Shown here: piece after piece, positions 9,999-11,790 of the stretch
Position numbering within the stretch: position 1 is the stretch's first letter
Layout: every line of letters begins with the position of its first letter
Assembly: GCF_014205255.1 (NCBI RefSeq)
Contig: NZ_JACHNE010000001.1
Location: forward strand, 248,001 to 312,000
Length of the DNA stretch: 64,000 nt
Direction: 5' to 3'
Source: Streptomyces caelestis
GTDB taxonomy: Bacteria; Actinomycetota; Actinomycetes; Streptomycetales; Streptomycetaceae
Translations under genes and position numbers: made by a program
The notes under the pieces: model-generated
What the model saw: only the letters and a program-made list of their open reading frames with translations
Database searches by the model: none
What the model was told of the DNA's origin: nothing

Positions 9999-11387
9999 AT
10001 GACCCCACCGCACACGATCGCCGTCCTCGGCCTGGGGCGCATGGGCGACGCGATCGCGACACGACTGGCTGCGCAGGACTGGGACGTCGTCGGCTGGACA
10101 CGCTCCGGGCGAACCTCAGGCGCCCTCGAGACGACCGGCGCTGCGAAGGACGCCGTGGCGAAGGCCGACCTCGTGATCCTGGCGTTGTTCGACGGTCCGG
10201 CCTGCCGACAGGTCCTCGACGACGCGCGTGACTCGCTGCGAGCGGACACGATCGTGCTGAACACCAGCACCATCGCCCCCGCCGAAGCGTCACAGCTGGC
10301 CCGGCGACTCGGCCCGTCCTACGTCCACGCGCCCGTGCTCGGCTCTGTGCCGGCTGCCGCCGCCGGCGCCCTGCAGATTCTCGCCGCCGCCGGCCAGGAC
10401 ACGCTCGACCGAGTCCGGCCGGTGCTGCAGACGCTGGGCACCGTGCGGCGCGTCGACGACGCCTCCACCGCCGCCGCGCTGAAGCTGATCGCCAACAACA
10501 GCCTCGCCGGCGCCGTCCTCGGCCTGCGCGACTCACTGCGACAAGCCGACGCCCTCGGCCTGCCCCGTGCCCAGGTGCTGGACGTCCTCGAACTCGGGGC
10601 GCTCGGCGGGCTCGTGGCCCGCAAACGTCCCTTCCTCACCGGCCAGGCGGGTGCTGTCACGGCCGACTTCACGATCGGCGCGCTGGCCAAGGACATGGCT
10701 CTGCTGGCCGCAGCGTCGAACACTCCCCTGCGCAGCGCAGCCAACGTGGCCGACACCCCTGCCGACCCCGAGGCGGACATCGCCGTTGCCGCCACGGTCC
10801 CCGCCGTGGACGACGCCGTGCTCCAACCGCTCCGCGCCTACATCCGCGGTCACGCCACCGGCGACCCCACCCACTTCCGCGACGCGTTCCTGCCCACCGC
10901 CCACATCGAGGGAATCCGGGACGGCGCATTCGTCTCGTGGCCCCTGGAGGAGTACTGCGCTCTCTTCCCCGGCCGGCCGGCCCCGGACGAACCTGCCCGC
11001 TCCCGCCGTATCGACGCCATCGACGTCCACGGCACCGTCGCGACCGCGACCATGACGCTCTCGCACGGCGCGGACACGTTCACCGACATCTTCCTGCTGG
11101 TCCGCGTCGACGACCGCTGGCGCATCTCCAACAAGGCCTATCACCGTCGAGGCAGCGACTCACGCCACCTCGCAGTGCTCCTCGGCGCTCAGAACCGTCC
11201 GCAGCCGCCGGCAGCGGTCGAGGTCCTCCCAGGTGTCGTGGTCGGGCGGGCCGGGGTTGCGGCGTCCGGTGCTCCAGGTCCAGATACTGGCGGCGATGCC
11301 GACGGACAGCGGGACGAGCAGCCACGGCAGGGCGCTCACGATTCACCTCCTTCGACGTGGCATACGGATGGGGGCCTCAGGCCGTGA
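9999..11387 (+). CDS. 6PGDH/imine-reductase-type NAD(P)-binding domain fused to an NTF2-like lumazine-binding domain
   Basis: The ATG at 9999 starts TIAVLGLGRMGDAIATRL, a Rossmann GxGxxG motif of the 6-phosphogluconate dehydrogenase/3-hydroxyisobutyrate dehydrogenase/imine reductase superfamily. The NAD domain spans residues 1-160 and an all-helical domain runs to about 250. A linker leads to an NTF2/lumazine-binding-like domain at about 265-385, ending DDRWRISNKAYH. The last 75 residues are low in similarity and overlap, antisense, a well-supported small gene at 11160-11339, so the original stop has probably been lost. It is divergent from a LysR regulator, its likely controller. Confidence 0.75.
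   Translation: MTPPHTIAVLGLGRMGDAIATRLAAQDWDVVGWTRSGRTSGALETTGAAKDAVAKADLVILALFDGPACRQVLDDARDSLRADTIVLNTSTIAPAEASQLARRLGPSYVHAPVLGSVPAAAAGALQILAAAGQDTLDRVRPVLQTLGTVRRVDDASTAAALKLIANNSLAGAVLGLRDSLRQADALGLPRAQVLDVLELGALGGLVARKRPFLTGQAGAVTADFTIGALAKDMALLAAASNTPLRSAANVADTPADPEADIAVAATVPAVDDAVLQPLRAYIRGHATGDPTHFRDAFLPTAHIEGIRDGAFVSWPLEEYCALFPGRPAPDEPARSRRIDAIDVHGTVATATMTLSHGADTFTDIFLLVRVDDRWRISNKAYHRRGSDSRHLAVLLGAQNRPQPPAAVEVLPGVVVGRAGVAASGAPGPDTGGDADGQRDEQPRQGAHDSPPSTWHTDGGLRP
11160..11339 (-). CDS. Small membrane protein (59 residues) with a strong ribosome-binding site
   Basis: A GTG at 11339 follows a near-ideal AAGGAGGTGA. The protein begins MSALPWLLVPLSVGIAASIW, one transmembrane helix, then a polar tail (DHDTWEDLDRCRRLRTVL). 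It is antisense to the 3' tail of the dehydrogenase fusion and starts 37 bp after the Hsp20 remnant on the same strand, which suggests it was co-transcribed with it. No family recognised. The start signal is among the best in the window, so I favour this frame over the plus-strand tail. Confidence 0.65.
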   Translation of the reverse strand: MSALPWLLVPLSVGIAASIWTWSTGRRNPGPPDHDTWEDLDRCRRLRTVLSAEEHCEVA

Positions 11388-11790
11388 GCTGCCTGGGTGC
11401 GCTGCCGGAGATGGCGATCTTGCGCGGCCTGGCGTGTGCGGCCAGCGGGATGCGCAGGGTCAGGACGCCGTTGTCGTAGGCCGCCTCGGCGGTTTCGGAG
11501 TCCAGGGCGTCGGACAGGGTCAGGCGGCGGGTGAACCGGCCGGTGGGGCGCTCGATGAGCACGGTCTTGGGGCCGGCCGGAACCGGGGAGCAGCGGTCAG
11601 CGGTCAGCGGTCAGCGGTCAGCGGTCAGCGGTCAGCGGTCAGCGGTCAGGGTGAGCGTGTCCCGCTCCACGGTCAGTTCGATGCGGGAGCGGTCCATACC
11701 CGGCAGATCGAACTGCACGTAGAGAGCTTCGTCGTCGCGCCAGGCATCCGCCGGGATGACGGCATCGGCCGCGGCGGCATGCGCGAGCGA
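11377..11790 (-). pseudogene. Hsp20 (alpha-crystallin) small heat-shock protein gene, broken by a 7-bp repeat
   Basis: The minus strand reads PADAWRDDEALYVQFDLPG, then ELTVERDTLTLTADR and a TGA. After a run of eight ACCGCTG heptamers the frame resumes as PAGPKTVLIERPTGRFTRR and continues to a normal Hsp20 end, SGSAPRQLTA. A heptamer run longer than about three units puts TGA into every frame, so the gene is broken at this copy number. Two heptamers would give a continuous frame (TADRCSPVPAGPKTVL). The N-terminal 20-30 residues and start are also missing, replaced by the head of the opposing Hsp20 remnant. Confidence 0.8.
11591..11646. repeat. Heptamer tandem repeat, eight perfect copies
   Basis: CAGCGGT on the plus strand (ACCGCTG on the minus strand) is repeated eight times without error, followed by a partial CAG. 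It lies inside the Hsp20 coding region at 11377-11790. Reading it in any phase cycles through the same seven codons, one of which is TGA. Confidence 0.97.

Follow-up and report, generated by a model that had tools for sequence, protein, structure and literature searches.

Does an hsp20 gene interrupted by eight perfect copies of a seven-base repeat represent a gene held reversibly in an off state, or a gene in decay? The question arises in a window of 64,000 nucleotides (the whole stretch of DNA analysed) from Streptomyces caelestis (contig NZ_JACHNE010000001.1, positions 248,001 to 312,000). The gene belongs to an island made up of a divergent hsp20 pair (here genes A and B), a dnaJ-like gene, dnaK and grpE, near one end of a chromosome-size contig. 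A first-pass annotation of the window had offered both a repeat-driven switch and a recent decay event as explanations. With a probability of about 0.9, gene A is in our view a pseudogene within an accessory heat-shock island that is decaying, and its array is no working switch. The features concerned, in window coordinates, are as follows.

11377..11788, minus strand: hsp20 gene A remnant, from about codon 17 to the stop, split by the heptamer array (nine-orthologue alignment; HSP20 match)
11591..11646, minus strand: array of eight perfect ACCGCTG units, its perfect period-7 tract running to 11649; orthologues are 42 bp shorter here
11787..11788, no strand: deletion junction, gene A and gene B overlapping by 2 bp (GC); neither 5' end nor the intergenic region remains (alignment)
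11787..12182, plus strand: hsp20 gene B remnant, from about codon 9, startless, frameshifted after the IPV motif (Pfam HSP20)
12118..12119, plus strand: 2-bp gap in gene B, a frameshift relative to eight orthologues (alignment)
12633..13040, plus strand: DnaJ-domain ORF of the same island (Pfam DnaJ, 9.2e-15)
13088..13463, plus strand: dnaK remnant, the first ~25 codons joined to a C-terminal part at 13158-13163
13466..14008, plus strand: grpE ORF, apparently intact (Pfam GrpE, 1.2e-27)

An eight-unit array within an Hsp20 reading frame

In a profile search of its own genome with HSP20 (PF00011), gene A scored 47.5 bits with two TGA codons inside the match, above the Pfam cut-off of 20.8 and thus identifying an Hsp20/alpha-crystallin domain. 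The C-terminal piece alone scored 32.7 bits against Pfam HSP20, and the N-terminal piece alone gave no Pfam HSP20 match. The same genome retains another hsp20 without internal stops.

The array is exact and lies inside the Hsp20 frame, as the first-pass annotation had claimed, and its length is far beyond chance: order-1 simulation of the window, repeated 40 times, gave no period-7 stretch longer than 19 bp, against 59 bp in the real sequence. A search of the own genome for three ACCGCTG units returned six overlapping matches, all within this array, and no second genomic site for that pattern. We tried all unit numbers from 0 to 11 (n = 12). At every number from 3 to 11 a TGA enters the Hsp20 frame (PADAWRDD...TLTLTADR), in agreement with the earlier claim that stops occupy each phase beyond about three units, and at 0 or 1 unit the reading shifts frame. 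Two units alone keep the frame open to its end, reading ...TADRCSPVPAGPKTVL....

To identify orthologues, the gene A protein of genome G017 was searched against 392 genus genomes, 206 of which contained matches at E <= 1e-30. The best group comprised 10 matches in nine genomes (E <= 1.3e-61; next, 8.8e-42), and no internal stops were found in these 10 best matches of the 392 genomes. Nine of them were aligned, the second copy in G036 being left out. The window carries a surplus of exactly 42 bp at the array relative to all nine, and the continuity from TADR to PAGPKTVL that the annotation had expected of orthologues was found in each, with no gap across the site. The two-unit version would read TADRC, whereas seven of the nine orthologues read TAER, and the residue that follows is Cys rather than the Pro of seven orthologues or the Arg of two, so that two units need not represent the ancestral condition.

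Loss of the upstream region shared by the two hsp20 genes

Orthologue similarity of gene A begins at about codon 17. The first ~16 codons and the start codon are missing, and the sequence ahead of the remnant is the second, opposite-strand hsp20, gene B (56.9 bits to HSP20 in the own-genome search, cut-off 20.8). Similarity to gene A reaches position 11788 (11793 against G017) and that to gene B starts at 11787-11789. Lost in the fusion are roughly 50 bp of gene A and 25 bp of gene B, together with all of the intergenic region and both start codons. The junction string was not found outside its own genome among 233 loci, the 10 matching loci all belonging to that genome. Gene A accordingly has neither a start codon nor an open frame, and relative to the nine aligned orthologues it combines stops in the array with a 5' deletion, as a pseudogene does.

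Both hsp20 genes are present in divergent arrangement at nine of the 10 related loci, G009, in which gene A has been lost, being the exception. The divergent start codons lie 300-1379 bp apart in the eight relatives measured (G416 left out), a distance that is gone in the window. We identified the pattern TTGAGY-N7-NNTCAA in all eight of these relatives' intergenic regions (L234-L240, L242), with one copy facing each hsp20 gene, 104-156 bp before the start of gene A and 86-95 bp before that of gene B. Its expectation was 0.000 in 300 mononucleotide shuffles per intergenic region, for a pattern widened after seeing the sequences from a first version, [GA]TTGA-N8 to 12-TCAAC, that occurred in six of the eight. 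The pattern has zero matches in the window, and in the rest of the genome its form with a final C has five matches against two for the reversed pattern. The HspR operator of Streptomyces heat-shock genes is given as TTGAGY-N7-ACTCAA (PMC2687793). By resemblance to that published motif, the relatives' intergenic elements look like HspR-type sites with an altered second half, the second half-site deviating from the operator. In contrast to HspR-regulated heat-shock genes of Streptomyces, the window lacks the element.

Piecemeal damage across the island

Lesions were identified in other genes of the island. In addition to the frameshift in gene B, the dnaK remnant lacks ~1.4 kb relative to G009 and ~1.5 kb relative to G017 and G299, its reading frame differs on either side of the join, and the ORF at 13104-13460 within it has no Pfam match. 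Two dnaK matches are found elsewhere in the genome, each covering nearly the whole family span, one of them in two pieces.

The closest relative compared, G009 (94.8% identity over 6 kb), has lost the 5' half of gene B as well as gene A. Its dnaK (L243, minus strand, within 8543-10600) encodes 591 residues against 620 in G017, with an in-frame loss of ~31 residues around DVLLLDVTPLSLG, a segment which we take for the interdomain linker. Thus, the same island has been broken at other breakpoints in G009. A search with the grpE region found matches in 14 of the 392 genomes, the own genome included, and a plasmid search returned 70 partly similar records, none covering 80% of the query.

The number of units, or the head-to-head fusion, could in principle be an artefact of assembly or sequencing, as tandem arrays and similar inverted genes can be misassembled. 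We consider this highly improbable. The genome (8.94 Mb) is assembled in a single contig, 100% complete and 0.77% contaminated, the flanks on both sides align normally right up to the junction, and the losses in the same stretch of G009, with different ends, make a loss in the window plausible.

In columns that are otherwise invariant, gene A outside the array is changed at 4 of 57, while single orthologues are changed at 0-6 of 57-63. For gene B the count is 7 of 83, with eight orthologues ranging over 1-7 of 84-90. Neither gene has thus drifted clearly further than its working orthologues. This weighs against the pseudogene reading, in that the remaining codons give no clear sign of relaxed constraint, and any decay of the two genes would have to be recent.

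Heptamer arrays in the genus and in other bacteria

Of 295 genus genomes, 31 carry ACCGCTG in four units and six carry its reverse. A special heptamer family was considered and rejected, since a control heptamer of the same composition, ACGCCTG, is about as frequent (four units in 28 of 295 genomes; its reverse in 16 of 295), indicating that the ACCGCTG unit is not special. Five units of ACCGCTG were found in at least 116 stretches of the species-wide collection, with several phyla among the matches listed.

Thirty ACCGCTG arrays were examined, each from a different genome; G326 was left out, as were the additional arrays in G030 and G205. Read in the stop orientation, coding-like sequence flanks 16 of the 30 upstream and three downstream. 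The window array is the only one of the 30 flanked on both sides, a class that may also cover two neighbouring genes. Excluding the window, 15 of 29 arrays have coding-like sequence upstream and two of 29 downstream. Among 580 random places in these other 29 loci, 224 had such sequence upstream, 216 had it downstream and 121 on both sides. A coding-like ORF of at least 100 aa ends within the first or second unit in 12 of the 30. For ACGCCTG, 20 arrays of the 28 genomes were examined (11 upstream, two downstream, two both), and flanking on both sides is thus not unheard of. Within Streptomyces, the ACCGCTG arrays that bear stops show a tendency towards the 3' ends of genes, where they often begin at the stop codon.

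One orthologous pair of ACCGCTG arrays in two genomes (L080 and L085) differs in length, with six against four units between flanks 93% and 90% identical, indicating that such arrays can change length. A mobile element carrying the array was not supported. This pair was the sole cross-genome one with both flanks matching once identical copies and arrays flanked by less than 100 bp had been dropped; under looser criteria 156 rows shared flank, some of which were followed up.

Placement at stop codons has already been published for other heptamers (PMC4692102; PMC4679880). The repeats GGGAATC of Xanthomonas and GGGGA(C/T)T of Nostoc are described as often overlapping stop codons or lying within 50 bp of them (PMC4692102). 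Like the window array these are perfect heptamer tandem arrays, but their units are described as G-rich and G-quadruplex-forming (PMC4692102), whereas the window array lies inside a gene remnant. The direct repeats with the unit TAACTGA, described from Beggiatoaceae among others, are likewise heptamers that stop all three forward frames; in the genome treated in that account most of them closely precede start codons and have a presumed regulatory role (PMC4679880). Heptamers are reported as abundant, with slippage as a proposed cause (PMC4692102; PMC4679880). Our search of the literature on heptamer and simple sequence repeats and on Streptomyces Hsp20 found no title on this locus among the matches listed. 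Among 150 distinct array contexts in our own data, only that of the window contained a gene A-like protein.

Switch or decay

Tetranucleotide repeats of Haemophilus influenzae reportedly form contingency loci through slipped-strand mispairing. Gene A shares with them a non-triplet repeat inside a reading frame, ACCGCTG x8 in the Hsp20 frame. Genes of contingency loci generally keep their promoter and start codon; gene A, in contrast, has neither upstream region nor start codon. As the intergenic region, its conserved elements and the start codon have been deleted, no number of repeats would restore native gene A or yield a complete, expressible gene. The suggestion that two heptamers restore the gene is therefore correct for the frame, which opens, but not for the native gene, which is not regained.

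A phase-variable hsp20, in which slippage between eight and two units would turn the protein off and on, is thus very unlikely. The position of the repeat within the frame, the opening of the frame at two units and the length difference between the orthologous arrays elsewhere in the genus are what such a locus might present. However, the cis element, upstream region and start codon are gone, a single unit number of the 12 tried keeps the frame open, and the array is found in none of the nine aligned orthologues. The proposed reversible switch fails on the deleted start codon, intergenic region and conserved elements. We give just as little credence to an earlier state in which, before the deletion, gene A was a true slippage-controlled gene, with the array perhaps still varying between an open two-unit length and a closed one in other strains of the lineage that keep the intergenic region. 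That the fusion made a new working gene is also most doubtful. It would be translated from the ORF 11756-12385 on the plus strand, made up of antisense gene A and of gene B and keeping most of an HSP20 domain (55.1 bits), or from the minus-strand ORF 11632-12060. Both ORFs exist, but chance long ORFs are frequent in this region, where 53 of 50 aa or more overlap 8500-15000, the native upstream region has been lost and gene B is itself frameshifted.

The best reading is that the array expanded by slippage in an accessory heat-shock gene that has recently begun to die, an ordinary finding. With its start and upstream region lost and its neighbours broken, gene A has the look of common gene decay rather than of a switch. 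The recent decay event put forward as the other explanation agrees with the 42-bp excess over all nine orthologues and with the damage to gene A, gene B and dnaK alike. Slippage in gene A, as the probable mechanism, would have grown a short ACCGCTG run to eight units, placing TGA in frame. A separate deletion joined the 5' parts of the divergent hsp20 genes, removing their shared upstream region and both starts, and other lesions broke gene B and dnaK; the order of these events is inferred. Gene A is presumably not expressed, and the array would be tolerated because the gene is dead.

The locus captures the piecemeal loss of an accessory heat-shock island in progress. It additionally calls for caution, as a repeat that breaks a frame and opens it on contraction mimics a switch, and it is comparison with relatives that reveals the lost start and upstream region. 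The distribution across the genus suggests that stop-bearing heptamer arrays, which are common there, tend to gene ends, where they are harmless.

Other features of the region

The ORF at 9963-11387 combines a 6-phosphogluconate-dehydrogenase-type NAD-binding domain with a putative lumazine-binding domain, and may represent two fused genes. We additionally noted perfect 9-bp tandem repeats at 12926-12957 (32 bp) and 16417-16454 (38 bp), the unit of which is a multiple of three.
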